From positions 1-36,317 of the forward strand of contig QHZD01000049.1 in NCBI GenBank assembly GCA_003225315.1: a stretch of DNA of 36,317 nt, given 5' to 3'. Below are positions 3,914-34,213 of the stretch, in pieces. This stretch comes from Acidobacteriota bacterium (GTDB lineage Bacteria > Acidobacteriota > Terriglobia > Acidiferrales > UBA7541). How positions within the stretch are numbered: position 1 is the first letter of the stretch; each line of letters starts with the position of its first letter. The notes under the pieces were generated by a model. That model did not search any database and was not told where the DNA came from. It saw nothing but the letters and a program-made list of their open reading frames with translations. Both the position numbers and the translations under genes were made by a program.

Positions 3914-4255
3914 GCACGGCCTCGGAATCCGCTCGGATGTCTTCGTTGCGAGAAGACCCCTGCCGAACGGGGCTCTATAGGGTAGCGCCTGGGTGAAAGG
4001 CAGTCCAGACGAGGGCTGTGGAAAAAATGTGGAGGACGGGGGAGTGTTGGATTGCCGCCGGAAGGGCCTACTTGCAGAGAATCGGGACGTTAGGCGATGC
4101 CTAGTGCTTTCCTACTATTGCTGCCCCTTTTCTATGTCGTTAGAGTTTCGCGCAACCGGGGCTGCGCATTTATCACGCGAAGGCTTAACCGTTCGTTTCT
4201 TGTGCCCGGAAGCGCGCGCATTTTGAGCTTGTATTTCTTTGGAGGGGCAAACCGC
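3914..4255. other. Intergenic region between divergent CHAD and TonB-receptor genes
   Basis: This 342-base stretch separates two divergent genes and should contain promoters for both, but I see no confident -35/-10 pair. Open frames across it (for example 3993-4226 on the plus strand) have no ribosome-binding site or recognisable composition, and I do not call them genes. GGAGGGGC at 4241-4248 is the likely Shine-Dalgarno sequence for the receptor gene. A short GGGTAGCG sequence occurs around 3980-3987, but no NusG-type regulator is adjacent. Confidence 0.5.
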
Positions 4256-7200
4256 ATGAGGCGATCTTGCATACTTCTACTTCTTCTGGGACTTGCGATG
4301 CCCGGGTTTGGCCAGAGCAACTACGCCCTTCTCACGGGGACCATTACCGATTCGCAGCATCTCCCCGTGGCCGGGGCTGCGATTGAGCTTACGGCCGCGA
4401 GCACGGGAGCAATCCGCCGCGTGGTCACGAACCAGCAAGGACTCTTCGAGGCCCCGGCACTCTTGCCGGATGACTACCAACTGAAAGTCGAGGCATCGGG
4501 CCTTGCTACGGCAAGACAGATGTTGCGCCTCGAGGTGGGCCAGAAACTGGCGTTGGAGATCACACTTACGGTTGGGTCGGTCGCGGAGGGAGTGAGGGTC
4601 ACGGCAGGGAGCGAAGTCTTGCAAACGACCGACGCCAGCGTCGGTGAAGTCGTCGAGCCCACGTCCATTCGCGAGCTGCCATTGAATGGGCGCATGTTGA
4701 TTGACCTCGTGCTCACCGTACCCGGATCGCATGTCGGGTTTGGGGCGCAGACGGGATCCACAAATCCTCTCTATTGGCGGCCAGGGCAAAGGTCCGCTGT
4801 GGTGATAGGTGGCGCGCGCCCCAATGCGAATTTTTTCCTGCTTGACGGCGCCACGAACACCGATCCGACATTCAATACGCAGAACTTGAGTCCTTCTCCC
4901 GACGCCGTCAAGGAATTTCAGGTCGAGACGAGCAGCTACACCGCCGACATGGGGGGCGCGGGGGGCGGCCAGATCAATATCGTGACGCATTCCGGCTCGA
5001 GCCAATACCACGGGACGGTATACGAATTCTTGCGTAATGGCGCAATGGATGCAAGCGCGTTCGCATCCATGGGCAATAATCACCTGGTGCAAAATAATTT
5101 TGGCGCGTCGTTCGGAGGGCCGCTCATCGGGAAGAAAACATTTTTCTTTGTCAATTACGAGGGTCTGCACCTGGCACAGGCAGACGCGCAGATTTTGACC
5201 GTTCCGACACCGGCTGAAATCATGGGGGATTTCAGCATGAGCAACGTCAAAATTTATGACCCGACCACTGCGGTGCAGAACCCGAATTACAATCCGAGTC
5301 TGCCGACCGGGCCCTCGAATTTCCCCTATACGCGTTCGCAGTTTTCCAACAACAAAATCCCGTCGGGCAGGGTCAATCCTCTTCTTGAAAGTTTTTTGGT
5401 CCAATATCTGCCGATGCCGAACATAATGATGGTGGCGGGGGCAGCGGATTCAAATAATTATCTTGATGTGCGCAACGAAACGCACTTTCAGGACCAGGGC
5501 ACGTTTCGCGTGGACCACAATTTTTCGAACGGCGATACGCTGCTGGCTCGATACTCTGCCGGCGGGGAAAATGGCTTCTCGCCGAGCAGCGGGATGACCA
5601 CGACGACGGAAAACTTGCCTGGATTTGGCGTGAACTTCAACAACCTTTCGCAGCAGGCGGTGGGGTCGTGGAACCACGTTTTTGCGAGCAACAGAATTAA
5701 CACTGTGTCGTTGGCGCTTTCGCGCTTATCCATGGACCGGACCTCGCAGAATGATGGAGTCAACGATATTGTCACGGCGTTAGGCGTTCAGGGAATCGGA
5801 TTTGGAGGCAAGAACGCGTGGGGCGCGCCGTGGTTCGCGGTTCAAGGATATACGGGAATCGGCGACACTTTTGCGGCAACGCCCATGCATGCGTGGGACA
5901 CGACCGTTGAAGTGCGAGACAGCTATGCGTGGCAGCGCGGCCGTCACGGCATGAAGTTTGGCGGCGAATTCCATCGTTATATCTGGCCGATGTGGGGATT
6001 CTTTCAAAACCGGGGCTTTTACCAGTACACGACGGGGTACACCACCGAATTTGGTTTCAACGATGGAAGCGGGTCCGGACTGGCCAGCCTGTTGCTTAGC
6101 CTACCGGCGGTGAAGCAGCGCCAGGCTGGCGTGCCACAAATGGATTTGCGCGCGTGGGGCACGGCGGGCTTTGCCGAAGATAGCTGGCAAGTGACGCCGA
6201 CGACGACTCTTAACCTTGGCCTTCGCTACGAGTACGCCAGCCCTCTCTACGACAAGCAGAGCACCAACACGAACCTGATTTTTAAGAATAGCGTTCCTTC
6301 CGTTTTCATTGGGGGACAGTTGGGCAACCCCAAAGGCTTGATGTACGCGAATAAGCACAACTTCGCGCCGCGTTTTGGAATTGCGAAGAATCTTCCAAAT
6401 AAAGGCTTGGTCTTCCATGGCGCTTATGGAATCTTTTTCACGCCGGTGGACCTGAACACGTGGTGCAACCAGCGGCACAATGTCCCGTACGTTTTCCCAG
6501 AGACGCAGCAAGCCGACAACTTCACGCCTCCAGCCGCGCTTTTCAATACTGGAATGAATTTCGGCACACCGGTGCTGGGCGCAGGTGCGCTGACGCCCAC
6601 TACCGTAAGCTTTACTGCGTTTGATTCCCATGCGCCCGCGCAGTACGTCCAGCAATGGAACGCGTCGGTGCAAAAGAGCTTCGGACAAAACACTTCATTG
6701 GAGATCGGCTACATCGGCTCGCGCGGTTTCCACCTGCAAAGGGCGCACCTGATCAACAACACACTCCCCGGAACGGGCCCCCTCGGGCCGCGCCGCCCGT
6801 TCAAGACGCTTACGTTTGTGCCGGGGACGGTATTGACGCCGAGCAGCACCAATGCCGTGGTGCAAAGCGAAACTTTCCCGGTCAGCACGATCAATTTGCT
6901 GGAGAACACGGCGCAGAGCTGGTATGACGCGGGCTATGTGAATGTGCGGCGCCGCTATTCTCATGGGCTGAGTTTCCTGGCCAATTACACTCTCGCCAAG
7001 AATCTAACGAATGCGCCGGACTTTCGTTCCCCGATGGACGAGTCGACTATTCCGCAGGACAACAGGAACCTAAATCTGGAGAAGGGCCCGGGCTGCGATG
7101 TACGGCATCGCTTCGCGCTGAGCAGTGTTTACGATGTCCCTGCATTGAGGAAGCAGGAATGGATGCGCCTCGTCACGCAGGACTGGCATTTGTCGACGAT

Positions 7201-7633
7201 CTACCAGGTGCAATCGGGAATGCCGTTCACCATCTCTGTGTTTGGAGACACCGCGAACTCTGGGACAGTGCTCGGTGAGAATCCGATACGCGCCAACGTT
7301 ACCGGACAGCCGGTGTTTGGTCTGGGAACTCACACGGCCGCAGAGTGGTTTAACCCCGCCGCGTTTGCAGCGCCACCGGCGTTTACTTACGGCAATGCGG
7401 GCCGGAATTCCGTGTATGGCCCTCGGATGCAGACGTTAGACTTCGCGCTGGCGAGAGCTTTCCGGATCAGCGAGAGAACCAGTTTCCAATTCCGGGCAGA
7501 AGCATTCAACGCGCTAAACAAGGTAAACCTTGGCACGCCGAACCGCTTTGTAAACACGCCGCAGTTTGGAACGATCACCATGGCGATGACGCCAGGGCGC
7601 GAAATCCAGTTGAGCGCCAGAGTTTCGTTCTAA
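4256..7633 (+). CDS. TonB-dependent receptor with carboxypeptidase-regulatory-like domain (Oar-like outer-membrane protein)
   Basis: The product is 1125 residues when started at ATG 4256, which follows GGAGGGGC and opens directly into a signal peptide (MRRSCILLLLLGLAMPGFGQ, cleavage near residue 20). The longer frame from 4097 adds 53 residues of unlikely sequence. Residues about 22-105 form a carboxypeptidase-regulatory beta-sandwich (TGTITDSQHLPVAGAAIEL). A plug domain follows, with ELPLNGRMLIDLV and a stretch NANFFLLDGATNTDP, and then a very long Asn/Gly/aromatic-rich beta barrel ending in the outer-membrane sorting signal IQLSARVSF with a terminal Phe. This architecture is abundant in Acidobacteriota, where such receptors are thought to import polymers or siderophores; the ligand is unknown. 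No ExbB, ExbD or TonB genes and no SusD partner are nearby, so it appears monocistronic. Confidence 0.92.
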   Translation: MRRSCILLLLLGLAMPGFGQSNYALLTGTITDSQHLPVAGAAIELTAASTGAIRRVVTNQQGLFEAPALLPDDYQLKVEASGLATARQMLRLEVGQKLALEITLTVGSVAEGVRVTAGSEVLQTTDASVGEVVEPTSIRELPLNGRMLIDLVLTVPGSHVGFGAQTGSTNPLYWRPGQRSAVVIGGARPNANFFLLDGATNTDPTFNTQNLSPSPDAVKEFQVETSSYTADMGGAGGGQINIVTHSGSSQYHGTVYEFLRNGAMDASAFASMGNNHLVQNNFGASFGGPLIGKKTFFFVNYEGLHLAQADAQILTVPTPAEIMGDFSMSNVKIYDPTTAVQNPNYNPSLPTGPSNFPYTRSQFSNNKIPSGRVNPLLESFLVQYLPMPNIMMVAGAADSNNYLDVRNETHFQDQGTFRVDHNFSNGDTLLARYSAGGENGFSPSSGMTTTTENLPGFGVNFNNLSQQAVGSWNHVFASNRINTVSLALSRLSMDRTSQNDGVNDIVTALGVQGIGFGGKNAWGAPWFAVQGYTGIGDTFAATPMHAWDTTVEVRDSYAWQRGRHGMKFGGEFHRYIWPMWGFFQNRGFYQYTTGYTTEFGFNDGSGSGLASLLLSLPAVKQRQAGVPQMDLRAWGTAGFAEDSWQVTPTTTLNLGLRYEYASPLYDKQSTNTNLIFKNSVPSVFIGGQLGNPKGLMYANKHNFAPRFGIAKNLPNKGLVFHGAYGIFFTPVDLNTWCNQRHNVPYVFPETQQADNFTPPAALFNTGMNFGTPVLGAGALTPTTVSFTAFDSHAPAQYVQQWNASVQKSFGQNTSLEIGYIGSRGFHLQRAHLINNTLPGTGPLGPRRPFKTLTFVPGTVLTPSSTNAVVQSETFPVSTINLLENTAQSWYDAGYVNVRRRYSHGLSFLANYTLAKNLTNAPDFRSPMDESTIPQDNRNLNLEKGPGCDVRHRFALSSVYDVPALRKQEWMRLVTQDWHLSTIYQVQSGMPFTISVFGDTANSGTVLGENPIRANVTGQPVFGLGTHTAAEWFNPAAFAAPPAFTYGNAGRNSVYGPRMQTLDFALARAFRISERTSFQFRAEAFNALNKVNLGTPNRFVNTPQFGTITMAMTPGREIQLSARVSF

Positions 7634-10743: not shown

Positions 10744-11370
10744 ATGGGAATGCGTAATCAGCAGTGGCCGTGGTTCGCGATCCTGGCCAGGACCGGCAGA
10801 GAAAGGAATGCGACCCTGTTGCTGGAGAACGCGGGTTACGAGTGCTATTTGCCCGTCAGTAAGTTCATTCGCCGATGGTCCGATCGGGTAAAAGAGGTCG
10901 ATCTGCCCCTCTTCCCCGGGTATCTCTTCTGCCGGATGAACCCGCATAACCGATTACCTGTGTTGATGACACCGGGCGTGATCCAGATTGTCGGAGTAGG
11001 CAAAACCCCCATTCCCGTGGAAGAGCCGGAAATTGCTGCGATCCAGCGCGTGGGCAAGAGCGGTCTCCCGACTATGCCCTGGCCGTATTTGGAGGTCGGG
11101 CACGTGGTTCGGATTGGGGAGGGGCCGCTGCAGGGTTTATCTGGAATGGTCCTCAAGATCAAGTCCGGACTAAAACTGGTGCTATCCGTCAGCCTGTTGC
11201 AGCGCTCGGTGGCGGTGGAAATTGACCGCAGATGGATCAGCAGCGTACATGCCGGGGCAAGGGCTTCACTCATTGATGCACCGTCCGGTCCGGCAAAATC
11301 TATCTCCATACACCAAATGCCGCTTGATAGCACGCGCGGCCTGGCGGGCGAGTCGTTCGAGGGGCGATGA
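10744..11370 (+). CDS. NusG-paralogue transcription antiterminator (UpxY/RfaH type)
   Basis: The 208-residue protein has an NGN domain (WFAILARTGRERNATLLLE, then LPLFPGYLFCRM, the NusG signature) over residues about 9-105 and a KOW-type domain around 110-160 (GHVVRIGEGPLQGLSGMVLK). About 40 residues of low-similarity tail follow. The YECYLPVSKF segment and the position at the head of a polysaccharide operon mark it as a specialised NusG paralogue, not the housekeeping NusG. Such proteins travel with RNA polymerase and suppress termination over long surface-glycan operons. ATG 10744 has GAGGAG at 10733-10738, five bases upstream, partly inside the CTCTATAGAG palindrome. It probably serves the genes that follow and may recognise the ops-like element in its own leader. 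Confidence 0.88.
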   Translation: MGMRNQQWPWFAILARTGRERNATLLLENAGYECYLPVSKFIRRWSDRVKEVDLPLFPGYLFCRMNPHNRLPVLMTPGVIQIVGVGKTPIPVEEPEIAAIQRVGKSGLPTMPWPYLEVGHVVRIGEGPLQGLSGMVLKIKSGLKLVLSVSLLQRSVAVEIDRRWISSVHAGARASLIDAPSGPAKSISIHQMPLDSTRGLAGESFEGR

Positions 11371-11412: not shown

Positions 11413-12153
11413 ATGCTTCGAAAATATGTACTTCCTATCAGTTTGCTAGCTTGCGCAATGGCGGGCGCGGCGTCTGTGGCGGAGCCGCAAGACGGCAAAG
11501 CGCCGGCGTCTTCCCCTTCGCAACAAGGGACTCACGCCAGCGCAGATGGAACCGGAGAGCGCGGGCAATCTCCGCAGCTGCAGCATCGCAATCGACGATA
11601 TCAATTGCACTCGGCGGATGTGCTGGAATTGAATTTTCCTTTCACACCGGAGTTCAATCAGACCGTCACAGTGCAACCCGACGGTTACATAACGCTTCGT
11701 GGCGTGGACAGCATCCGCGTGGAGGGCCAGACGCTGCCCGAATTGAACGATTCGCTGCGAGCCGTTTATGGAAAGATTTTGCACGATCCGGTAATCAACG
11801 TTGAGTTGAAGGATTTTGAGAAACCGTTCTTCATTGTGGGCGGGGAAGTGGGTCATCCCGGGAAATTTGATTTGCGCGGAGAGACGACCGCGACTGAGGC
11901 AGTTGCCATTGCCGGAGGCCTTAGAGATTCAGCAAAACATTCGCAGGTGGTGTTATTTCACCGCGTGCCGGATGGCTGGGTTCAGGTCAAGAAACTAAAC
12001 ATGAAGAAGATGCTGAAAGACGCGAACCTGAACGAGGACGCCTACTTGCAACCTGGCGATTTTCTTTACGTCCCGAAGAACACAATGTCAAAGATCGGGA
12101 GATTCATCCCAACCTCATCGCTCGGTCTGTATGCAAATCCGGGCGTTCTGTAG
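11413..12153 (+). CDS. Polysaccharide export protein (Wza-like, Poly_export plus SLBB)
   Basis: The 246-residue protein starts with a signal sequence; LLAC at residues 11-14 could be a lipobox, which would make it an outer-membrane lipoprotein like Wza, although signal peptidase I cleavage further on is also possible. A low-complexity Ser/Gln/Gly linker precedes a Poly_export domain (YQLHSADVLELNF ... TVTVQPDGYITL) and one SLBB domain (FFIVGGEVGHPGKFDLRG). It ends with LQPGDFLYVP. It lacks the further SLBB repeats and amphipathic C-terminal helix of E. coli Wza, so whether it forms the outer-membrane pore itself is open. It is followed 29 bases later by the chain-length regulator gene, the usual periplasmic partner. 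Confidence 0.88.
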   Translation: MLRKYVLPISLLACAMAGAASVAEPQDGKAPASSPSQQGTHASADGTGERGQSPQLQHRNRRYQLHSADVLELNFPFTPEFNQTVTVQPDGYITLRGVDSIRVEGQTLPELNDSLRAVYGKILHDPVINVELKDFEKPFFIVGGEVGHPGKFDLRGETTATEAVAIAGGLRDSAKHSQVVLFHRVPDGWVQVKKLNMKKMLKDANLNEDAYLQPGDFLYVPKNTMSKIGRFIPTSSLGLYANPGVL

Positions 12154-12182: not shown

Positions 12183-13673
12183 ATGATCGAAGGAACACTG
12201 AACACTCACGCGGACGAGGAAAAGCAGAGTTTCACAATGAGGGATTTCCTGGCGATCGGTTTTCGCCAGCGCCGGTTGATCATTAATACCTTTCTGGGGA
12301 TCGTGGCGGTTTCCGCCGTAATTGCGTTTCTGCTGCCCAAGAAATACGAAGCCCAGATGAAAATTCTGGTAAGGCATGAACGGGCCGAGCAAGTGGTGTC
12401 GCCAGAACGGGAAACTCCCGTGCAATGGCGGACGGAAGTAAGCGAGGAAGAATTGCAGTCGGAAGCGGAATTGATCAGGTCCAAGGATTTGCTCGGCAAG
12501 GTGGTGGTTGCGTGTAATCTTCAGTCCCTGAACTCAATTCCTTTCTGGAGCAAAGCGGAGGAGAACGACGAGCAGAAAATTGCGCGCGCGGTGATCAAAC
12601 TGGAAAAAGCGCTGACAGTCCAGCCGATTAAATTGACGAATCTAATTAGCGTCTCTTACAAAGCGAGAGATCCGCAGATGGCGGCCAAGGTGCTGAATTC
12701 GCTGGCCAGTCTGTATCTGGAAAAGCACCTGGCCATGCATCGGGCTCCAGGACAATATGAATTCTTCTACCAGCAGGCCGAGGAATATCGAAAGGCCTTA
12801 AAAGGCGCCGAAGAAAAATTGACCAGTTTCAGCCGCGACCAGGGGGTCGTCAATCCGACGCTTGAGAAGGAAATGAGCGTGCGCAAGCTCGCGGAGTTCG
12901 AAGCCGAGAAGAAGGCAGCGCGGGCGACTATAGCGGAGAGTCGGCAGCGCATTGCCGCGCTCGAGGCTCAATTGACCTCTCTTCCCAACCGTCAGACAAC
13001 GCAGGTGCGTACGTCAGACAATCCTCAGCTGATGCAGAACATGAAGTCCAAGTTGCTGGACTTGGAGTTGAAACGCACCGACCTTCTGACAAAATTCGAG
13101 CCGACATACAGGCCCGTCCAGGAGGTCGAGCAGGAAATTACCGCGACGCGTGCGGCCATCACTGCGGCAGAAAAAGCGCCCCTGAGAGACGAAACAACGG
13201 ACCGCGATCCCACTTATGATGCGATGCGATCTGAACTGGCGAAGGCCAAAACGGAGCTCGCAGCAACAGAGGCGCGCGCGGGAGCTATGTCTTCGCTGAT
13301 TCGGACGTACCGGGCTGAGAATGAGCAACTGGACCGCAAGGAACTCCTGCAGCAGGACATGCTCCGTACGGCTAAGTCAAACGAAGAGAATTACATGCTG
13401 TACCTCCGCAAAGCAGAGGAGGCGCGAATTTCAGACGCACTGGACCGACAGCGCTTTTCCAACGTGGTGGTAGCGGAACCCGCCACGGTACCGTTCACCT
13501 CCCAGTCGCGATGGCTGCTGGTCATGGCTCTTGGCGTGGTGCTTGGGAGCCTGGCGAGCGTAATTCTGGCTGTTGTCGCGGACCGCTGGGATCCGTCGTT
13601 GCGGACGCCGGAAGAGGTCGAATCCTTCCTGGGCAGCCCCGTGGTTGCCGCGTTTCCGAAGAATGGCGATTAG
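12183..13673 (+). CDS. Polysaccharide chain-length regulator (Wzz/GNVR family)
   Basis: The 496-residue protein has the two-membrane-helix architecture of the family: a cytoplasmic N-terminus, a first helix at about 33-51, a large periplasmic region dominated by coiled coil (KALKGAEEKLTSF to ATEARAGAMSSL), and a second helix at about 444-466 followed by a short cytoplasmic tail with TPEEVESFLGSPVVAAFP. That tail resembles the linker that in fused proteins leads to a BY-kinase domain, but the protein stops there; the kinase-like gene is separate, two genes downstream. It should set EPS chain length and connect the inner-membrane machinery with the export protein encoded just upstream. The next gene begins 5 bases after its stop. 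Confidence 0.88.
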   Translation: MIEGTLNTHADEEKQSFTMRDFLAIGFRQRRLIINTFLGIVAVSAVIAFLLPKKYEAQMKILVRHERAEQVVSPERETPVQWRTEVSEEELQSEAELIRSKDLLGKVVVACNLQSLNSIPFWSKAEENDEQKIARAVIKLEKALTVQPIKLTNLISVSYKARDPQMAAKVLNSLASLYLEKHLAMHRAPGQYEFFYQQAEEYRKALKGAEEKLTSFSRDQGVVNPTLEKEMSVRKLAEFEAEKKAARATIAESRQRIAALEAQLTSLPNRQTTQVRTSDNPQLMQNMKSKLLDLELKRTDLLTKFEPTYRPVQEVEQEITATRAAITAAEKAPLRDETTDRDPTYDAMRSELAKAKTELAATEARAGAMSSLIRTYRAENEQLDRKELLQQDMLRTAKSNEENYMLYLRKAEEARISDALDRQRFSNVVVAEPATVPFTSQSRWLLVMALGVVLGSLASVILAVVADRWDPSLRTPEEVESFLGSPVVAAFPKNGD

Positions 13674-13678
13674 AAACC

Positions 13679-15010
13679 ATGTTCCTCGATTTTTATAAAC
13701 TGCGCGACCAACCGTTTGGCGTGACGCCGGATCCGCGCTACCTCTATTTCAGTCCCGGGCATAGAGAAGCGCTGGCATCCATGTTTTACGGTATTGAAAC
13801 GGGACGCGGTTTTCTATCCCTCGTTGCGGAGCCTGGGATGGGCAAGACCACGCTGCTGTTCCAGCTCTTGCAGCGATGGAAGGGCTACGTCCACAGCGCG
13901 TTCCTGTTTCAGACGCAGTGTGACTCCCGAGAGTTGATTCGCTACTTGCTGGATGACCTGGGCATCGAGAACAAGGGCGAGGACATTGTACGGATGCACT
14001 CGGAACTGAACGAATTCCTGTTTCGCGAGACGAAAGCAGGAAGGCGAGTAGTAGTTTTTATTGACGAGGCGCAAAATCTCTCCGACACGGTGCTTGAGAC
14101 GGTGCGGCTGCTCTCGGATTTTGAAGCGCCGGACAAGAAACTGCTTCAGATCATTCTGGCCGGTCAACCGGCGCTGGCACAGCGGCTGGCGCGACCGAGC
14201 CTGGTCCAGCTCCGCCAACGCATTGCAGTTCAGGCGCAGCTGGATCCGCTTCCTCTCGGCGAGACGGTCCGCTACGTTCAGCATCGTCTGAAGGTCGCGG
14301 GGTATCAAGGTCCTGAGTTGTTTACTCGTGATGCGATGGAGCTGATCGCTGAACGCAGCCGGGGAATACCACGACTCATCAACAACCTTTGCTTCAATGC
14401 GTTGTCGCTGGGTTGTGCGATGCGACTGAGGCAAATTGAGGCCGGTGTGGCGAAGGAAGCCGCCGAGGACCTATCAACCGGTTTGCAAGGCGCGAGACCC
14501 GCAGTTTCGCAACAAGGGGCAGCTCCACAGGTTGCTCGGGGCGCGCGCTCATCGCCAAAGTCCCTTTATTCCCGCGTTCGCGAAAATTTCCGGCGGCACC
14601 ATCTTTTTCAGACAACAATCTTTTTGGTTGCGATCGGCAGCTTGGGGATTTTCCTGGGCACGCGGATACGACCGGCAACTGCGCAGCCTTCTGCTGTCCT
14701 ACCGGTCGACAGTGCAAGTTCTGTTCCGGCTCGGGGTTTGGAACCCAGGTCTGAACAACAAGCGCGCAGTCTTTCCTCCGGCGTGCTTTCCGCGAAGGCG
14801 CCTCAAACAAGGGCAGGGGAGAGTTCAATTCGGACATTTACGTATGTGATTCAACCGACAGACACCTTGCAAGATCTCTGCATGTCTATGGTAGGGCGAT
14901 ATGACAGCAAGGTTTTGTCCGAAATCCGCAGGCTTAATCCAAATCTAAAAGACCTTGACCATCTTCACGTAGGACAAGAAATCCAGCTCCCGATGTCGTT
15001 GGCAAAGTGA
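13679..15010 (+). CDS. GspA/ExeA-like AAA ATPase with membrane helix and periplasmic LysM domain
   Basis: The product has 443 residues starting at ATG 13679. The first part is an ATPase of the type found in exosortase-linked EPS loci: MFLDFYKLRDQPFGVTPDPR opening, Walker A EPGMGKTT at 51-58, Walker B VVVFIDE at 124-130, and SRGIPRLINNLC at 227-238 in the sensor-2 position. A membrane helix (about 310-329) is followed by a flexible Ser/Ala-rich linker and a C-terminal LysM domain (388-437, YVIQPTDTLQDLCMSM ... HVGQEIQLP). GspA of type II secretion has the same layout with another peptidoglycan-binding domain. It could therefore couple ATP hydrolysis to anchoring or opening of peptidoglycan for the export apparatus. 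The longer frame from 13511 runs inside the preceding gene and is not used. Confidence 0.85.
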   Translation: MFLDFYKLRDQPFGVTPDPRYLYFSPGHREALASMFYGIETGRGFLSLVAEPGMGKTTLLFQLLQRWKGYVHSAFLFQTQCDSRELIRYLLDDLGIENKGEDIVRMHSELNEFLFRETKAGRRVVVFIDEAQNLSDTVLETVRLLSDFEAPDKKLLQIILAGQPALAQRLARPSLVQLRQRIAVQAQLDPLPLGETVRYVQHRLKVAGYQGPELFTRDAMELIAERSRGIPRLINNLCFNALSLGCAMRLRQIEAGVAKEAAEDLSTGLQGARPAVSQQGAAPQVARGARSSPKSLYSRVRENFRRHHLFQTTIFLVAIGSLGIFLGTRIRPATAQPSAVLPVDSASSVPARGLEPRSEQQARSLSSGVLSAKAPQTRAGESSIRTFTYVIQPTDTLQDLCMSMVGRYDSKVLSEIRRLNPNLKDLDHLHVGQEIQLPMSLAK

Positions 15011-15070: not shown

Positions 15071-16294
15071 ATGAGCAAGAACTTTGAGCTTCTCCAACGA
15101 GTAGGTAACGTTCAGACCCTGTTCGAAACAGCGATCCAGGGGGAGGATACTGTTCCGGCGGCGAGGGATGAAGCAAGTCTTGCCCTGGATAAAGAGACCT
15201 TCGAGAGAATCATGCTGAATGCATCTTTGCCCGACGTCTTCGAGACGGTTACTGAACCTCTTCCCGGGACTTTCGAAGAGTGGTCCGACCCTCGGCCCGA
15301 TGCGCTGGGAGAGGGTAAAGCAAACGTCTCGCAAGTTGATGATTATGCGACCGTATTTCGACCTTCGGAAAACGCAACCAGCTGGTTTGATGATTTTGAG
15401 AACTTTGTTGAGAAGAATTCCGCGCAAAACGCAGCGGAGAGCCCTTCCTTACCGAAAGCAGCGCCTGAGGAACAGGAACTTCGCGTGCCGACTAGCCCGA
15501 CGGGCATGGGATCCACTACTCTAGTTAGGGAGGAGGCGCGGCGGAGCTTCCGTCCAAAGTTCTCTCCGTCATTCCAATGGATTGAAGGAATTAAGCGCGC
15601 CGCCAATAAATGGGAACGGAAGCTGCCGGCGCGCGGTAGCCAGAAAGATAACCGTATCGATGCGATCGCGCGCGAAGAAGAATTCAAGTTAGTTCAGCGT
15701 GTTTTCCCCGGAACAAATCAGGGTTCGCCGCGGGTAGCGCTGTTTGCTGGTCTTGAAAGCGAGTCGGGTTGTGGTTCGATCTGCGCCCGCGCGGGGAAGA
15801 TACTTGCGTCTCGTGCCGAAGGGCCAGTGTGTGTTGTGGATGCAAATTTCCAGGCGCCCTCGCTGCACGAATACTTTGGTGTGGAAAATTGCAAAGGATT
15901 GGCCGAAGCCACCGTTGAATCGGGTCCCATACAGAATTTCGCCCAGCAAATCCCGGACCATGACCTGTGGTTGCTGCCAAGCGGGAAGTCAGCTACTGAA
16001 TTACGTTTTCCCACAATGGCAGAAGGATTGCGAGAAAGAATAAAAGAACTGCGCGACACCTTCCGGTATGTCGTCATCCATTCGGGACCGCTCCGACTGC
16101 AAACCAGCGCGATGCAGCTTAGTCGTTGGACCGATGGTGTCGTGCTGGTGGTGGAGGCAAATAACACGCGGAAGGAAGCGGCGCGGCGCGTGAAGGATAA
16201 TCTAGCGGTTGCCAACGTGAGCGTACTTGGAGTTGTGTTGAACAATCGCGCATTTCCAATTCCCGACGCGATCTACCGGAGGCTCAAAGGATAG
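15071..16294 (+). CDS. BY-kinase/CpsD-like P-loop protein with degenerate nucleotide-binding motifs (pseudokinase)
   Basis: Residues 218-407 of this 407-residue protein have the CpsD/MinD-like fold order, but the catalytic motifs are altered. The Walker A position reads ESGCGSIC (231-238), where the lysine and Ser/Thr of GKS/T are replaced by Ser236 and Ile237. Walker A' reads VVDANFQAP with Asp257 kept but the second Asp changed to Asn259. Walker B reads FRYVVIHSGP, with His337 instead of the expected Asp. There is no C-terminal tyrosine cluster. The first 200 residues are acidic and low in similarity to anything I recognise. It follows the chain-length regulator and the AAA ATPase, the position normally held by the tyrosine autokinase. 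It may be a structural or regulatory remnant; loss of kinase activity is an inference. Confidence 0.75.
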   Translation: MSKNFELLQRVGNVQTLFETAIQGEDTVPAARDEASLALDKETFERIMLNASLPDVFETVTEPLPGTFEEWSDPRPDALGEGKANVSQVDDYATVFRPSENATSWFDDFENFVEKNSAQNAAESPSLPKAAPEEQELRVPTSPTGMGSTTLVREEARRSFRPKFSPSFQWIEGIKRAANKWERKLPARGSQKDNRIDAIAREEEFKLVQRVFPGTNQGSPRVALFAGLESESGCGSICARAGKILASRAEGPVCVVDANFQAPSLHEYFGVENCKGLAEATVESGPIQNFAQQIPDHDLWLLPSGKSATELRFPTMAEGLRERIKELRDTFRYVVIHSGPLRLQTSAMQLSRWTDGVVLVVEANNTRKEAARRVKDNLAVANVSVLGVVLNNRAFPIPDAIYRRLKG

Positions 16295-16457: not shown

Positions 16458-17186
16458 ATGGCTGAACAACAAACTTGGCAATGGCCAAGCCGGATAGCCC
16501 TGCTGGCCGACCGATCAGAAAGGAATTTCTATTTCACCTGCAAGCGTTGCCTGGACTTGATCTTTGCAGGTGTCCTGTTTGTCTTTCTCTTCCCGCTATT
16601 CTTGCTGATCTCTGTCCTGATCAGGCTGGATTCACCGGGCCCAGTGCTGTTCACCCAGGAACGCGTTGGAGCAAAACGGCAATCGGCGGGGGGACGTGCA
16701 TTCTGGCTCGTTCAGAATTTCACGATGTACAAGTTCCGGTCCATGGTCGCGAACGCTGATTCTTCAATTCACGAGGCGTACATTCGAGACTTTGTCGAAG
16801 GTCGTGCCCAACCCTCGCCGGAAAATGGCGGGACATTCAAGCTCACCAATGATCCCCGAGTGACGCGACTCGGCCGATTTCTGCGGAAGTTCAGTTTGGA
16901 TGAGCTGCCGCAACTCTTGAACGTATTGAAAGGAGACATGAGCCTTGTGGGGCCTCGTCCGGTGCCTCCTTACGAAGTCGCCTGCTATGGAAACGGGCAT
17001 CACAAGAGACTGGCTGCGCTGCCCGGGATCACTGGCCTTTGGCAAGTGAAGGGGCGCGGCAAGGTTTCCTTCGAGGAGATGATCCGTATGGACCTCGAGT
17101 ACATTCAGAACACGTCCCTTTGGCAGGATCTCAAAATTCTTTGTCTTACCGTCCCAGCGGTAGTATCCAGGAGAGGTGCAGAATGA
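16458..17186 (+). CDS. Initiating sugar-phosphate transferase (bacterial sugar transferase family)
   Basis: At 242 residues this is a short, PglC-like form: one N-terminal membrane segment (31-55) ending in [14 protein letters not shown], then [44 protein letters not shown] (Asp148-Glu149 are the expected catalytic pair) and [12 protein letters not shown]. The family transfers a sugar phosphate from a UDP-sugar to undecaprenyl phosphate on the inner membrane, the first step of repeat-unit assembly. The sugar specificity cannot be read. A gap of 163 bases without a gene separates it from the pseudokinase, so an internal promoter is possible. Its stop overlaps the start of the next gene as ATGA (17183-17186), indicating translational coupling to the dehydrogenase. 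Confidence 0.93.
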
Positions 17187-19500: not shown

Positions 19501-20946
19501 CTGGGAAAGGAGTTGCAGGCACGAGCGGTAAACACAATTTCGAACCCGAGCCAGACGGCGGGAACGGCGACCTACCCACGTCTCCGCTCAGTCAGCGCGG
19601 ACTCCCTAGTAGTCGCCATTTTGAGTCCTTTTCTTGCCCTGACCTCCAGGAGTCTTCAAAGGTTCCTCTTGGCGATTGTCATCCTGGATATCCCCATTCA
19701 ATTCGGCACGTATCTCTTCTACCGGCCTCTCGATGCAGCGCGAGGGGCATTAAAAGGCCTGAGCATCTCGGCGACAACGCTCGCCCTAGCGGCCCTATAC
19801 ACGTCTTGGGTCGTCCAGGCACTTGCAAGAAGAACGCCCAGCGAGCGTTCCTCGCCTCACTTCAATTTGCCCCTCTTGGTGTATCTCGCCTTCACAGCAC
19901 TCTCAGTGCTCGTCGCCGGAGATCAGACCCTCTCGCTCTTCGAAGTGTACCTCTTGCTGGAAGCCTGCCTGATCTATTTCTATGTCGCCAACAATGTGCG
20001 AACCCGGCAGGATGTCCTGTTCGTTGTGTCGTTGCTACTGGGCGGATGCTTGTTTGAGAGCCTGGTCATCACCGTAATGAAATTCACGGTGACAGCCTCG
20101 ACGACATGGGATTTTCCAATTCACATCATTGCCGAGGGTCTTGGCGACACCGGACGTATGCGGATCGGTGGCACGATCGGAGTGCCCAACGTAGCGGGCG
20201 CTTACCTCAGTGTCATGCTTGCGTTTGCAGCCGGCATACTATTTGGGGATCTGGGCAAGGCGTACAAATGGCTGGCGTCGGCGGTGCTTGGGCTAGGCGG
20301 CGTCGCGCTAATTTTCACGTTCTCGCGTGGAGCGTGGATTGCCCTGGTCTTGGCGATGGTGGTGCTGTGCTTCGTACAGTGGCGCCAGCGTGGTATTTCT
20401 TTGAAACGGCCCATCGCGATCTTCGTAGTCATTGCATTACTGTACCTGCCCCTCCACGGCGTCATTTCGGAGCGTCTTTTCGGCAACGACCAAGGATCGG
20501 CGCAGTCTCGCATTCCTTTGAACAAACTGGCGTTTCGAATGATTGCGGACAATCCGGTGTTGGGAGTGGGTGCAAACAATTTCACTTCAGCAATGGACCA
20601 ATACGCGACTTCCGAGTTTCGTCATGAATGGCTATGGGCGGTTCATAACAAGTACCTATTGATTTTGGCGGAAACCGGCATTGGTGGCCTGCTGGCCTAC
20701 GTTGCATTTCTGCTGAGCATTTTGCGGAAAGGTTGGCAGTGCTGGAAGCTCGGCGATTCTGTTCTCTCACCTCTTGCACTCGGCCTCGTTGCCGCTATCG
20801 CCGGTCATATGGTCCACCAGGGTGTTGACTTATTCCGAGATCGTCCCCTTCAACAATTGCTTTTGTTGGTTGCGGGCCTGCTAGCCGCGATGTACAAGAT
20901 TTGCGCCGCTGATCAGCGGCGGATTCCGCTCTCCAGCAAGGTCTGA
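19501..20946 (+). CDS. O-antigen ligase/polymerase-family membrane protein (Wzy_C)
   Basis: The protein has about 480 residues and at least ten hydrophobic segments. It contains the Wzy_C/O-antigen-ligase pattern: a periplasmic loop region after VLGLGGVALIFTFSRGAWIALVLA, and later NPVLGVGANNF with the HNKYLLILAETGIGGLLAY motif typical of the family. In this operon it most likely polymerises repeat units. The start is unusual: there is no ATG in the N-terminal region. AAAGGAGG at 19488-19495 is a near-perfect Shine-Dalgarno sequence spaced five bases from CTG 19501, whereas TTG 19513 has GAAAGGAG directly abutting it. I use 19501; starting at 19513 shortens it by four residues. An in-frame TAG at 19483 rules out an earlier start. 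Confidence 0.85.
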   Translation: MGKELQARAVNTISNPSQTAGTATYPRLRSVSADSLVVAILSPFLALTSRSLQRFLLAIVILDIPIQFGTYLFYRPLDAARGALKGLSISATTLALAALYTSWVVQALARRTPSERSSPHFNLPLLVYLAFTALSVLVAGDQTLSLFEVYLLLEACLIYFYVANNVRTRQDVLFVVSLLLGGCLFESLVITVMKFTVTASTTWDFPIHIIAEGLGDTGRMRIGGTIGVPNVAGAYLSVMLAFAAGILFGDLGKAYKWLASAVLGLGGVALIFTFSRGAWIALVLAMVVLCFVQWRQRGISLKRPIAIFVVIALLYLPLHGVISERLFGNDQGSAQSRIPLNKLAFRMIADNPVLGVGANNFTSAMDQYATSEFRHEWLWAVHNKYLLILAETGIGGLLAYVAFLLSILRKGWQCWKLGDSVLSPLALGLVAAIAGHMVHQGVDLFRDRPLQQLLLLVAGLLAAMYKICAADQRRIPLSSKV

Positions 20947-30020: not shown

Positions 30021-30212
30021 GGCCGGACGCGCCTTTTCTATGATTTCGTAGCTTCATCCGGTGCGGGTTCCGTCAATCAAACGCCCACGAACCACGCAGC
30101 GATGCATTGCAGGGGGAGATCACAACCTATGCTGCGATCAATCGGTAAGACTTCGCCATCCGGTAAATTCCGGAATTCACGGCTAGAAAAACTCCTCACC
30201 TAGAGCCCTTTG

Positions 30213-31646
30213 ATGTCTCTGAACTTCCGCAAAACGGGCGGCAACGCCCTTTCGATCCTCACAAGCGATGCGATGAACCGGGCGACAAGCTTTGTCTTGT
30301 ACGCTCTGGTGGCTCGACACCTTGGCGCGCACGAGTTCGGCCAGCTTTCGTTGGCACTCACTCTGTTCTACATCTTCCAGGTACTTGCCGTAGCCGGTCT
30401 CAAGACACTCATCATCCGTCAGGTCACAATCGATCGGAGCCAGACAAGCCGGTATTACACCACGGGCTGCGCTATTGTGACGCTCTCTTCTTTTTCTTCC
30501 TTGGCATTGTTGTTTGGTTTCGTTCGTTTAATGCATTATCCGGCAGACACAACCCTTGTCATCTTGCTTACCTGCATTGGGCTGCTTCCTTACGCAATTT
30601 CAGCGATCTGCGAAGGAATTTTTCAAGCCTGGGAGCGAATGTATCTCATTCCTTACGTGAATGTGCCTGTGAATGTCGCCAAGGTCAGCTGCGCATTTCT
30701 GCTTCTAACGAGGAAAAACGGATTATATGCGGTCGTCCTGATTCTACTGTCGTCCCTCGTTGTCGCGGCCCTGACGGAAGTCTGGATGCTCTTCCGAAAA
30801 TTCCCCGTGCATATGGAGCTGGTTGACTATTACTTTTGTCTGGCCACTTTTCGGTCAGCGGTCACGTTCCTTGGTATTGACGGCACAATCGCGGTAATGA
30901 GCAGCTTGAATGTTCTGCTTCTTTCGAAATTGGCGACAGAAACGGAAGTTGGCCTTTACAGCGCGGCGACGCAGTTGATGGTACCGCTGCTGCTCGTTTA
31001 CCAGAGCATTGGGCAAAGCGTGTTTCCACTCATGTGCCGAAAGGTAGAGCCAGGTTTCCAGAGCCTGAAACGCATCTCAGCGCAAGTCATTGAAGTGCTG
31101 CTGATCCTGGCGCTTCCCGCGCTGGCTGGTCTGTTTTTCCTGGGCGATTGGGCTCTGTCAATCCTCTACAAGAATCCTGTGTTTCAGCAGGCGTTCCCTG
31201 CATTGCGAATTGTAGCTTGGGTTCTGATCTCGCAAGTGTTCACGAGTGTTCTAGGTCAGGCGCTTGTGGCCAGCCATCGTGAGAAAATTACATTGAGAAT
31301 CGTCGCTGTAGATACGCTTGTCAATCTGCTGGTCGGCTGGCCCCTGATCCGCGTCCTCGGCTTGCGTGGCGCGGCGATCGCGTTGCTGGCGACGAGATTG
31401 GTAGATTGTTGCCAGCACTACGTTCCAGTCTCGCGGCTTTTCGGTGGGATCCCGCTCGCGCAGATCATTTGGAAGCCGATTATTGCGGGCGTATGCATGA
31501 CGGCATATCTTCTTCTCTCCTCGACTCAGGCAGGAGTTCTGAGAAGTGTTTCCGCGACGGCGATATACAGCGCTGCGTTGATTGTCTTGGCCATCTGGGC
31601 TTCTGGAGGTGTTCGCCATTTAAAGACAAGTACCTTCTTCTCTTGA
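30213..31646 (+). CDS. Wzx-type flippase (polysaccharide biosynthesis/MATE-like membrane protein)
   Basis: The 477-residue product has about 12-14 hydrophobic segments. It opens with GGNALSILTSDAMNRATSFVLYALVARHLGAHEFGQLSLA, the standard beginning of Wzx/RfbX flippases, and has the family's LGLRGAAIALLATRLVDC region in the second half. Such proteins move lipid-linked repeat units across the inner membrane for polymerisation. ATG 30213 is preferred to TTG 30210. The gene diverges from the beta-helix gene over a 192-base region containing the palindrome AATTCCGGAATT (30166-30177). It is therefore outside the 10744-28566 run and needs its own promoter. It is the only flippase in the window, matching the single polymerase. 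Confidence 0.9.
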   Translation: MSLNFRKTGGNALSILTSDAMNRATSFVLYALVARHLGAHEFGQLSLALTLFYIFQVLAVAGLKTLIIRQVTIDRSQTSRYYTTGCAIVTLSSFSSLALLFGFVRLMHYPADTTLVILLTCIGLLPYAISAICEGIFQAWERMYLIPYVNVPVNVAKVSCAFLLLTRKNGLYAVVLILLSSLVVAALTEVWMLFRKFPVHMELVDYYFCLATFRSAVTFLGIDGTIAVMSSLNVLLLSKLATETEVGLYSAATQLMVPLLLVYQSIGQSVFPLMCRKVEPGFQSLKRISAQVIEVLLILALPALAGLFFLGDWALSILYKNPVFQQAFPALRIVAWVLISQVFTSVLGQALVASHREKITLRIVAVDTLVNLLVGWPLIRVLGLRGAAIALLATRLVDCCQHYVPVSRLFGGIPLAQIIWKPIIAGVCMTAYLLLSSTQAGVLRSVSATAIYSAALIVLAIWASGGVRHLKTSTFFS

Positions 31647-31798: not shown

Positions 31799-34213
31799 AT
31801 GTGTCATGCTCAGAACCTTGCACTGCTGATCCGCCTTGTACAAGAAGCAAAACGCTGCCAGCAGAGGGCATTCGGCGAAATCGGTTTCTTATTCAGAATT
31901 GTTTTGCTGTTCATATTAATGAACGCATGTGGAGCTGCCTCAGCCTTTGCCACATGCGATGCTCCTGCAAATCCGATCGAGGCGGAGAATTGTCTGCCGG
32001 GCAATCCTCCTGGTCAGTGGTATGTCGCGGGAGCAGGCTCGAGCAACATACAGGGATTTACCACGGATATTAGCGTGAACGTTGGCCAAACGGTGTTCTT
32101 TAAAATCACCACCAGCGCCGCAGCGTACAGCATTAATATCTACAGAATAGGCTATTACCAGGGGAATGGAGCGCGCTCCGTGGCGCTCCCGCAAAGCCAG
32201 CCTCCTTGCCTGTGGGATGGCTCTACCGGACTAACCGACTGCGGCAACTGGGCCGTATCCGCCTCTTGGGCTGTGCCCAGCACGGCTACGTCGGGAGTCT
32301 ATTTTGCTCAGCTCACGCGCCAGGATACCGGTGAGGCGAGTCCCATGCTTTTTGTTGTGCGCAACGATGCCAGTCATTCCGACATCTTGGCGCAAACGTC
32401 GGACACTAGCTGGCACGCTTACAACGACTATGGGGGATACAGTTTTTATTCCGGCGAGCTCGGTCGCTCGTACAAAGTCAGCTACAACCGGCCGTTTAAC
32501 GTGCCAAATATGTATGCTTGGTTTTTCAGCGCGGAATATCCCATGATTCGCTGGTTGGAAGCGAACGGCTACGACGTCAGCTATTTTACGGGCGCGGATA
32601 CGGACCGTAACGGCGCGCTGATCACTCAGCACAAAGTTTTCATGTCAATCGGTCATGACGAATATTGGTCGGGCGGACAACGCGCCAATGTGGAAGCTGC
32701 CCGGGCGGCCGGTGTGAATCTGGCATTCTTTAGTGGCAACGGAATCTTTTGGAAGACTCTCTGGGAATCAAGCATTGACGGCACAAATAGGTCATACCGC
32801 ACGCTGGTTTGCTATAAGGAGACGCTAGCGAACAGAATCATCGATCCCGCGGATCCGCCCATTTGGACCGGCATGTGGCGAGACTCGCGCTTCAGTCCGC
32901 CAGCCGACGGGGGCCGTCCCGAAAACGCATTGAGCGGCACAAGCTTCCTGGTAAACGAGGTTCGCAGAGATTCCATCACCGTGCCCCAGGCAGACGGTAG
33001 AATGCGCTTCTGGAGGAATACCAGCATTGCGTCGCTGGCGCCCGGGCAAGTTGCTACGCTGCCGGCGGGCGTGCTTGGCTACGAGTGGGATGTGGATGCC
33101 GATAACGGATTCCGTCCGGCAGGTCTTGTGCCCCTCTCGACCACGACATTAACCGTGCCGACTTGCCTCATCGGCTACAACAGCAGTGGCACTTGTTCGG
33201 CAACCCACCATCTGACCTTCTACCGCGCCGCGAGTGGAGCCCTTGTCTTCGGGGCGGGTACTGTCCAGTGGTCTTGGGGGCTGGATAACAATCATGCGAT
33301 AGACAATATCACTCCAACTGACCCTAATATGCAGCAGGCCACCGTAAACATTCTTGCTGACATGGGAGTTCAGCAGGCGGCGTTACAGAGAGGCCTTTTT
33401 CCTGCGACACCTTCTGCTGACACCACACCGCCCCAATCAACGATAACCTCGCCCGCCTCGGGCAGTGCGGCGGGCCCGGGCTCTACAGTGACCATCTCCG
33501 GAACGGCTGTCGACTTTGGGGGTGGCGTGGTGGGCGCAGTTGAGGTGTCTGTGGATGGGGGAAACACATGGCACCCTGCTGTGGGTCGCGAGAATTGGAG
33601 TTATACCTTCAGTGTTGGCAATTCCTCAACTCTAAACGTCCAGAGTCGAGCGGTTGATGACAGCGGGAATCTGGAGGTTCCCAACGGCGGTATCACGCTC
33701 GCCGTGGGCCCAACCAACTGTCCCTGCACGATCTGGCCGAGCACCGCTGTTCCGTCGCTTGTTGATGTTGGTCCTGATGACCCAGTCGAGTTAGGAGTTT
33801 CCTTCAAATCCGATTTCAACGATTACATTAAGGGCATCCGCTTTTATAAGAGCGCCGCCAATACGGGAACGCATGTGGGAAGTCTTTGGGACAGCGCTGG
33901 TAATTTGCTGGCTACTGCGACTTTCACCGGGGAAACCGATTCGGGTTGGCAGGAGGTGGATTTTCCAAATCCTGTGCCAGTCAATGCCAACGCCTTGTAC
34001 GTGGCCTCCTACCATGCCCCATCAGGGCACTACAGCGTGGACGGGTATTACTTCACGAGTTCTGGCGTGGACAATGCACCGTTGCACGCTCCACTGAATG
34101 GCAGCGGCACTCCCAACGGGCCTTATGGGTACAGCAGCACCAGCGTCTTCCCAACCAGCACTTACAACTCCGCCACCTATTGGGTGGACATGGTCTTCAA
34201 CTACCAACCATGA
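31799..34213 (+). CDS. Secreted protein: N,N-dimethylformamidase-beta-like domain, Ig-like domain and DUF4082
   Basis: The 804-residue protein starts with a long signal region (hydrophobic 30-41, cleavage near AFA 49-51). Residues about 70-190 form a beta-sandwich with YSINIYRIGYYQGNGAR. The following domain has HAYNDYGGYSFY, the RPFNVPNMYAWFF segment, YDVSYFTGADTDR and MSIGHDEYWSGGQR (285-290 GHDEYW), the signature of N,N-dimethylformamidase beta-subunit-like proteins; in the true enzyme a mononuclear iron is held by two Tyr and one Glu. An Ig-like domain follows (DTTPPQSTITSPASGSAAG onward), and DUF4082 ends the protein (about 655-804, IKGIRFYKSAANTGTHVGSL). DUF4082 resembles carbohydrate-binding modules. 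Substrate unknown; a glycan amide is a tempting guess given the amidotransferases. Stop and next start overlap as ATGA. Confidence 0.82.
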   Translation: MCHAQNLALLIRLVQEAKRCQQRAFGEIGFLFRIVLLFILMNACGAASAFATCDAPANPIEAENCLPGNPPGQWYVAGAGSSNIQGFTTDISVNVGQTVFFKITTSAAAYSINIYRIGYYQGNGARSVALPQSQPPCLWDGSTGLTDCGNWAVSASWAVPSTATSGVYFAQLTRQDTGEASPMLFVVRNDASHSDILAQTSDTSWHAYNDYGGYSFYSGELGRSYKVSYNRPFNVPNMYAWFFSAEYPMIRWLEANGYDVSYFTGADTDRNGALITQHKVFMSIGHDEYWSGGQRANVEAARAAGVNLAFFSGNGIFWKTLWESSIDGTNRSYRTLVCYKETLANRIIDPADPPIWTGMWRDSRFSPPADGGRPENALSGTSFLVNEVRRDSITVPQADGRMRFWRNTSIASLAPGQVATLPAGVLGYEWDVDADNGFRPAGLVPLSTTTLTVPTCLIGYNSSGTCSATHHLTFYRAASGALVFGAGTVQWSWGLDNNHAIDNITPTDPNMQQATVNILADMGVQQAALQRGLFPATPSADTTPPQSTITSPASGSAAGPGSTVTISGTAVDFGGGVVGAVEVSVDGGNTWHPAVGRENWSYTFSVGNSSTLNVQSRAVDDSGNLEVPNGGITLAVGPTNCPCTIWPSTAVPSLVDVGPDDPVELGVSFKSDFNDYIKGIRFYKSAANTGTHVGSLWDSAGNLLATATFTGETDSGWQEVDFPNPVPVNANALYVASYHAPSGHYSVDGYYFTSSGVDNAPLHAPLNGSGTPNGPYGYSSTSVFPTSTYNSATYWVDMVFNYQP

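Follow-up and report, generated by a model that had tools for sequence, protein, structure and literature searches.

The open reading frame at 15071-16294 (+) encodes a 407-aa, stand-alone relative of BY-kinases and lies in a window, i.e., the whole stretch of 36,317 nucleotides analysed, that corresponds to contig C44 of a draft genome with a size of 4.98 Mb. Its product is probably a BY pseudokinase, which forms the kinase half of a two-protein co-polymerase and serves as a scaffold for a kinase-less Wzz/PCP chain-length protein (PCP) without tyrosine phosphorylation. This reading is based on the loss of catalytic motifs, descent within a single lineage, purifying selection, conserved gene order, and a conserved cytoplasmic tail of the PCP. 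Catalysis would have disappeared in an ancestor shared by the whole family, whose members are mainly from one class of Acidobacteriota. Most likely, the pseudokinase attaches to the kinase-less PCP encoded upstream, through the short tail that the PCP has in the cytoplasm, and binding and release may scaffold or gate the oligomeric state of the PCP during polymerisation and export by a Wzx/Wzy pathway; an adjacent AAA ATPase is a candidate for the energy source or the control of this process.

The frame is open over its entire annotated length, and the protein consists of an N-terminal motif (MSKNFELL), an acidic linker (residues about 1-190), a dead kinase-like core (residues about 196-393), and a C-terminal motif (FPIPDAIYRRL). 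By alignment and codon count from the start of the frame, residues 190-407, covering the kinase-like core, are encoded at 15638..16291 (+). The acidic N-terminal region described in the initial annotation was found as a mildly acidic stretch of 190 residues with 32 Asp and Glu, 22 Lys and Arg, and a computed pI of 4.7. A long N-terminus is seen mainly in near relatives of the window protein (longer than 340 aa in 10 of 40 aligned sequences) and also, elsewhere on the tree, in L143 (387 aa) and L134 (329 aa), while many other family members have only about 40-60 residues N-terminal to the core. An MS[KR]NFELL-like start was detected in 70 of 84 stop-to-stop frames with a loose pattern not anchored to any position in the frame. 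The window pseudokinase gives no Pfam match. Its best NCBIfam match is TIGR03018, the XrtA-associated tyrosine autokinase, with which it shares a slot beside a PCP and a TIGR03015-like ATPase; unlike that autokinase, it has no catalytic residues and reaches only 56.1 bits (residues 245-391) against a cut-off of 230.65. TIGR01007 is matched with 53.4 bits (cut-off 108.05) at residues 252-392. When the family profile was compared with known structures, the CapA1/CapB chimera 2ved (2e-24), VpsO (7e-24), Etk (8e-19), and Wzc (1e-18) were hit, with MinD (3e-9) behind these BY-kinases, in line with a predicted BY-kinase-like fold. Because the AlphaFold2 models, one each for the full length (mean pLDDT 33.4) and the core (34.3) from alignments of the window protein and two relatives only, were without confidence, the evidence for the predicted fold and the putative docking groove comes from sequence profiles and precedent.

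Two Acidobacteria MAGs contain the nearest named relatives of the window protein, which are 91% and 76-77% identical to it. With a family profile built from 33 relatives, 95 genomes of the order were screened; the hits were 37 places at 278-362 bits and three rows at 175-199 bits (the divergent L076 and L077 and the truncated L094), and true BY-kinases followed as the next tier at 131 bits or less. Family members are carried by at least 30 of the 95 order genomes, as 35 have a match at E<=1e-35 and five of these (G040, G043, G053, G093, and G094) match solely in the kinase tier. At E<=1e-45, at least 65 of 399 genomes match in the class sample and at least 5 of 396 in the phylum sample, one of the five being outside the class. 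These carrier counts are lower bounds because a limited number of candidates was scored per genome (up to 21, 5, and 5 in the order, class, and phylum searches, respectively), the class and the phylum were sampled, and only E<=1e-45 was considered there. The protein belongs to a discrete family, mostly of one class of Acidobacteriota. When non-acidobacterial members were sought among plasmids by tblastn with L153:6727-7443:-, 377 records were obtained, all of them below 60% identity; the best 20 of the 377 were 27-33% identical, and 14 of them were labelled polysaccharide biosynthesis tyrosine autokinase.

For comparison, 84 loci, L014 and L015 included, were fetched with their surroundings; with the window added and the truncated L094 removed, 84 rows were used for counting. 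They were set against 38 kinase rows from the same class, which represent 37 distinct kinases (L183 and L195 are the same gene); four of the kinases are encoded in the window's genome. Two rows were kept out of the tree and of the 84/38 counts, namely L094, in which the truncation precedes Walker A, and the partial kinase L187, and L140 was represented in the tree by the C-terminal 250 residues of its stop-to-stop frame; the automatic choice of start was wrong or unsure for L139, L140, L164, L171, L176, and some others. In a quick tree search, in which long end branches are present, the family forms one side of a branch with an SH-aLRT value of 100.

The pseudokinase gene is located in a polysaccharide cluster. 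A gene for a NusG/UpxY/RfaH-like antiterminator (10744..11370, +) stands ahead of that for an outer-membrane polysaccharide export protein (Poly_export, SLBB; 11413..12153, +), and then come the PCP gene (12183..13673, +), encoding 496 aa with no kinase-domain match, and a gene for an AAA ATPase (13679..15010, +) related to the XrtA/PEP-CTERM-associated TIGR03015 (249.6 bits, cut-off 324.5). The ATPase start at 13679 is inferred, the listed frame beginning at 13511. This ATPase has a Walker A sequence GMGKT, a DEA box, and a weak C-terminal LysM match. The PCP ends with a 31-residue cytoplasmic tail, ADRWDPSLRTPEEVESFLGSPVVAAFPKNGD, which is the proposed docking peptide. Only 5 bases lie between the PCP and the inferred ATPase start, and 60 bases between the ATPase and the pseudokinase. 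Downstream, an initiating sugar-phosphate transferase (Bac_transf; 16458..17186, +) is followed by an oxidoreductase, an aminotransferase, a Wzy-like polymerase/ligase (Wzy_C; 19513..20946, +), and genes of the amidotransferase and glycosyltransferase types, and a flippase-like gene (30210-31646) lies farther along the window; the amidotransferase, like the ATPase, falls below its XrtA cut-off. Since the cluster contains the Wzy_C gene and the flippase-like gene, a Wzx/Wzy-type pathway is suggested. A Pfam scan of 27 window ORFs gave no match to a low-molecular-weight or PHP-type tyrosine phosphatase, and the matches to a histidine-phosphatase and to Ppx/GppA, located at the start of the window, come from other genes. 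Nothing clear emerged from promoter-like sites (2 found, 2.8 expected) or terminator-like sites (12 found, 7.6 expected, sd 3.1).

Partners at the other loci were identified by phmmer searches with the corresponding window proteins (E<=1e-8) and counted over the 72 of the 84 loci with at least 2.5 kb of upstream DNA, a frame being regarded as directly upstream if its end and the start of the pseudokinase frame are no more than 700 bases apart. All 72 loci have a kinase-less PCP and/or an AAA ATPase directly upstream of the pseudokinase. The PCP takes this place in 22 loci. At a distance of up to 6 kb, upstream or downstream, 71 of the 72 have a PCP and 67 an export gene. No second BY-kinase frame (E<=1e-10) is present in the 84 loci, which extend over 3-16 kb. 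The order of genes varies in L072, L073, and L157, and in L067, L068, and L083, with an ATPase or a PCP still directly upstream; the ATPase precedes the export gene in some loci, the PCP lies downstream of the pseudokinase in others, and NusG-like genes recur near many related loci, often downstream of the pseudokinase. The PCP tail is of the type DPSFRTPEEVxxxLxxPVLAAxPK, and a loose form of this pattern was detected in 74 of the 77 loci with a PCP frame; the three misses are L059, where Leu is changed to Phe and the tail is visible by eye, and L147 and L171, where the PCP frames are truncated. An upstream PCP with a conserved cytoplasmic tail and no kinase-domain match is further evidence for a docking role of the pseudokinase. 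In the sole kinase-linked PCP tail compared, that of L179, the overall layout is the same but RTPEEV is missing, and conservation of the tail may have reasons common to active kinases.

A search for an intact BY-kinase elsewhere in the genome, as had been advised initially, yielded four above the cut-off, all of which retain GKS or GKT. One of them is a stand-alone kinase encoded at the C39 locus (L179), where the genes are arranged as export protein, PCP, ATPase, kinase, sugar transferase, oxidoreductase, and aminotransferase. Since this order matches that in the window, two operons of the same genome have a similar slot, which is filled by an active kinase at C39 and by the dead one in the window.

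The frequent company of the ATPase raises an alternative in which the pseudokinase is chiefly an adaptor for this neighbour: the ATPase would provide the energy that comes from phosphorylation cycles in other systems, and the pseudokinase would couple the ATPase to the PCP. Consistent with this, the ATPase is directly upstream in 52 of the 72 loci (L135 and L165, with doubtful fused frames, included), G.GK[ST] occurs in every listed ATPase frame except that of L133, which is cut by a contig end, the gaps on both sides of the window ATPase are short, as given above, and its dN/dS against L015 is 0.144. However, the position directly upstream is occupied by the PCP and not by the ATPase in 20 of the 72 loci, and the ATPase is not special to the pseudokinase because it also adjoins true kinases in the same genome (L179 and L181). 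The apparent ATPase-pseudokinase fusions of L135 and L165 were considered as evidence of contact and rejected; these frames are doubtful because they seem to cross untranslated sequence before an internal MS[KR]NFELL start, and a frameshift with read-through is likelier in draft contigs. The adaptor reading is therefore rather unlikely.

In an ungapped P-loop alignment with true kinases, the column of the Walker A Lys is occupied by Cys234 (15770-15772, +) in the window protein. The initial annotation was right in that the Lys is missing, but had placed the substitution at Ser236, which is two residues off. This Lys is found in none of the 84 family rows and in all 38 kinase rows. Since the kinases were picked for the tree by an active-kinase model and score, the Lys in their rows is partly the result of selection, and the score gap in the order-level search is a more independent control than this count. 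The second Asp of Walker A' (DxD) is Asn259 (15845-15847, +) in the window protein and is lost in 75 of the 84 family rows, remaining in 9. Walker B Asp is replaced by His337 (16079-16081, +) and is lost in 27 rows, the window included, with Asp in the other 57. The alignment thus bears out both replacements as initially proposed. As to whether the substitutions are fixed among orthologues, the loss of the Lys is (84/84), whereas the second A' Asp and the Walker B Asp vary. On the tree, a single change is needed for the Lys and eight each for the second A' Asp and Walker B; in the simplest reading, the Lys was lost once, on the stem of the family, and the Walker B loss in the window is a later, recurrent step. 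The C-terminal tyrosine cluster is indeed absent from the window protein, but one C-terminal tyrosine, Tyr402 (16274-16276, +), remains. The last 25 residues contain 0, 1, or 2 Tyr in 85 family rows, against 3-10 Tyr in 10 kinases, for which a longer terminal stretch of 40 residues was counted.

Since the first A' Asp (Asp257 in the window protein; 79 of 84 rows) is still present in many family members, as is the Walker B Asp, weak nucleotide binding is possible in the family. In a second alternative, the protein would be a cryptic switch, in which ATP or ADP is bound without the Lys and without phosphate transfer, and occupancy of the site gates the PCP. Also in its favour, Gly233, which precedes the lost Lys, is present in 74 of 85 rows, and a Ser or Thr follows the Lys position in 67 of 84. 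Nevertheless, no family row has the Lys, the window protein itself carries Gly235 for the Ser/Thr besides His337 for the Walker B Asp, and the state of Walker B needs at least eight changes on the tree, as is expected if it is of little importance now. A nucleotide switch is, on these grounds, quite unlikely.

The family has conserved features of its own in place of the lost parts. At the same register, the oligomer motif EX2RX2R, described as an interface motif of BY-kinases (PMC3795738), is present in 35 of the 38 kinase rows but in none of the 84 family rows. At this place the family helix reads EExxKLVQRxF, and when shifted by one residue, E, K/R, and Q/R/H occur at the EX2RX2R spacing in 68 of the 84 rows. 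Ring formation like that of Wzc and CapB cannot be assumed for the family because the ring motif is gone. Phe212 and Cys254 (15830-15832, +) are invariant in the 84 family rows, in contrast to 1 of 38 kinase rows with Phe and none with Cys at the respective positions. At the C-terminus, the family ends with FPIPxxLYxRL, and Arg393, Pro398, and Tyr402 are each present in 82 of the 84 rows; the Tyr402 column also has Tyr in 23 of the 38 kinase rows, within their tails, where the alignment is loose.

Taken together, cysteines at the Lys site and in the strand and helix next to it, a new helix for the oligomer motif, and the FPIPxxLYxRL tail might represent a rebuilt module, a thiol- or metal-gated switch for the PCP that is possibly driven by the ATPase and replaces phosphorylation; this bolder picture is judged very doubtful. 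The narrower proposal that the catalytic pocket was rebuilt with cysteines, whose redox state or bound metal gates docking, draws on the invariance of Cys254 and its absence from kinases, on Cys238 in 73 of the 84 family rows, on Cys234 at the Lys position in 54, and on the presence of all three in 49. But the proximity of these cysteines is putative, and their place in a strand and a helix may reflect no more than packing; 30 of the 84 rows lack Cys234, and a Cys at position 238 is also found in at least 2 of the 38 kinase rows. Such a thiol/metal switch is highly improbable.

Selection on the pseudokinase and its partners was estimated as dN/dS by the Nei-Gojobori method against L014, L015, and L058. 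The pseudokinase core gives 0.188, 0.095, and 0.159, respectively, the first value resting on 11 changes only, and is under purifying selection. For the whole gene the values are 0.48, 0.188, and 0.256; that of 0.48 against L014, the closest relative, is due to a fast N-terminus (0.53), and against L015 the N-terminus likewise evolves faster than the core (0.34 vs 0.095). The ATPase gives 0.298, 0.144, and 0.163, and the PCP 0.064, 0.061, and 0.079. A decaying gene or a sequencing artefact, as might be suspected from changes in all three motifs of one protein and from a few truncated or odd frames (L094, and the PCP frames of L147 and L171), is almost certainly not the explanation, as recent decay and sequencing error are ruled out by the absence of the Lys from all 84 rows and by the core dN/dS of 0.095-0.188. 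Sequencing error is also unlikely because the two named MAGs (91% and 77% identical) carry the same three changed motifs. The motif changes first noticed in the window are therefore neither errors nor recent decay. Orthologues with intact motifs, which would have spoken against a non-catalytic protein, were looked for, and the Lys was found in 0 of 84. With these data and the core dN/dS of 0.095 against L015, the non-catalytic role suggested at the outset, with putative docking on the chain-length regulator, is the best-supported reading.

Phosphorylation cycles of the Wzc type are held to meter many secreted polysaccharides, and exceptions have been described (PMC12004946). EcpK (MXAN_7447) of M. 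xanthus lacks all Walker motifs and interacts with the kinase-less PCP EpsV, as shown by proteomics and two-hybrid assays; the 25-residue C-terminus of EpsV was modelled into a groove of EcpK, and EcpK was proposed to be a scaffold that guides PCP assembly without phosphorylation, with HfsB/HfsA as the second case (PMC12004946). Compared on the basis of this description, the window protein resembles EcpK in that it is stand-alone and has lost Walker A, A', and B and the tyrosine tail, that its partner PCP has a short cytoplasmic tail and no kinase domain, and that true kinases are encoded elsewhere in the genome and the exopolysaccharide pathway is of the Wzx/Wzy type. Differences, as far as that source describes the system, are that no BY-kinase gene lies beside epsV, whereas the window pseudokinase and PCP genes are close, that an AAA ATPase adjoins the window pseudokinase, and that EcpK has a basic C-terminal helix without Tyr instead of a conserved FPIPxxLYxRL ending. 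HfsB/HfsA, acting in the holdfast of Caulobacter crescentus, are likewise described as a stand-alone BY pseudokinase and a kinase-less PCP of a Wzx/Wzy pathway, and the C-terminal helix of HfsB was modelled against the base of the first membrane helix of the PCP (PMC12004946). The anatomy of the window fits the EcpK/EpsV scheme, except that the ring motif is absent, and docking would follow by analogy.

Among active systems, CapB, Wzc, and VpsO (PDB 2ved, 3la6, and 6u1q) share with the window protein the kinase-like core, as judged by profile, and a cytoplasmic PCP tail beside the kinase, but not the losses of the three catalytic motifs, EX2RX2R, and the tyrosine cluster. S. aureus CapA1/CapB1 is similar in that CapB1 is a BY-kinase-like protein that had no detectable kinase or ATPase activity in the reported assays; unlike the pseudokinase family, CapB1 is described as keeping the BY-kinase signature (PMC3795738). 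Pseudokinase/PCP pairs and the scaffold idea were therefore known already from EcpK/EpsV and HfsB/HfsA (PMC12004946). New are the extent of the family, the apparently single loss of the Lys, the replacement helix, the C-terminal motif with one Tyr, and the invariant Cys next to the dead site. No open-licence paper joining BY-kinases and Acidobacteria was found, nor, among the matches listed, a title or abstract on such an acidobacterial family.

In this class of soil bacteria, the single apparent loss of the Lys, together with the gene order and PCP tail that were kept, suggests that the phosphorylation-independent version of this machinery is an old and successful lineage and not an oddity of Myxococcus and Caulobacter. 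The active and the dead kinase in similar operon slots of one genome provide a natural control, and with Cys254 and the C-terminal motif there are defined residues that can be tested.

Two large proteins encoded in the window were also observed. Within the cluster, at 31799-34213, lies a gene for a protein with DMFA2_C (N,N-dimethylformamidase beta-like), DUF4082, and Ig-like domains, and upstream of the cluster, at 4097-7633, one for a 1178-aa outer-membrane beta-barrel with a carboxypeptidase-regulatory-like domain.
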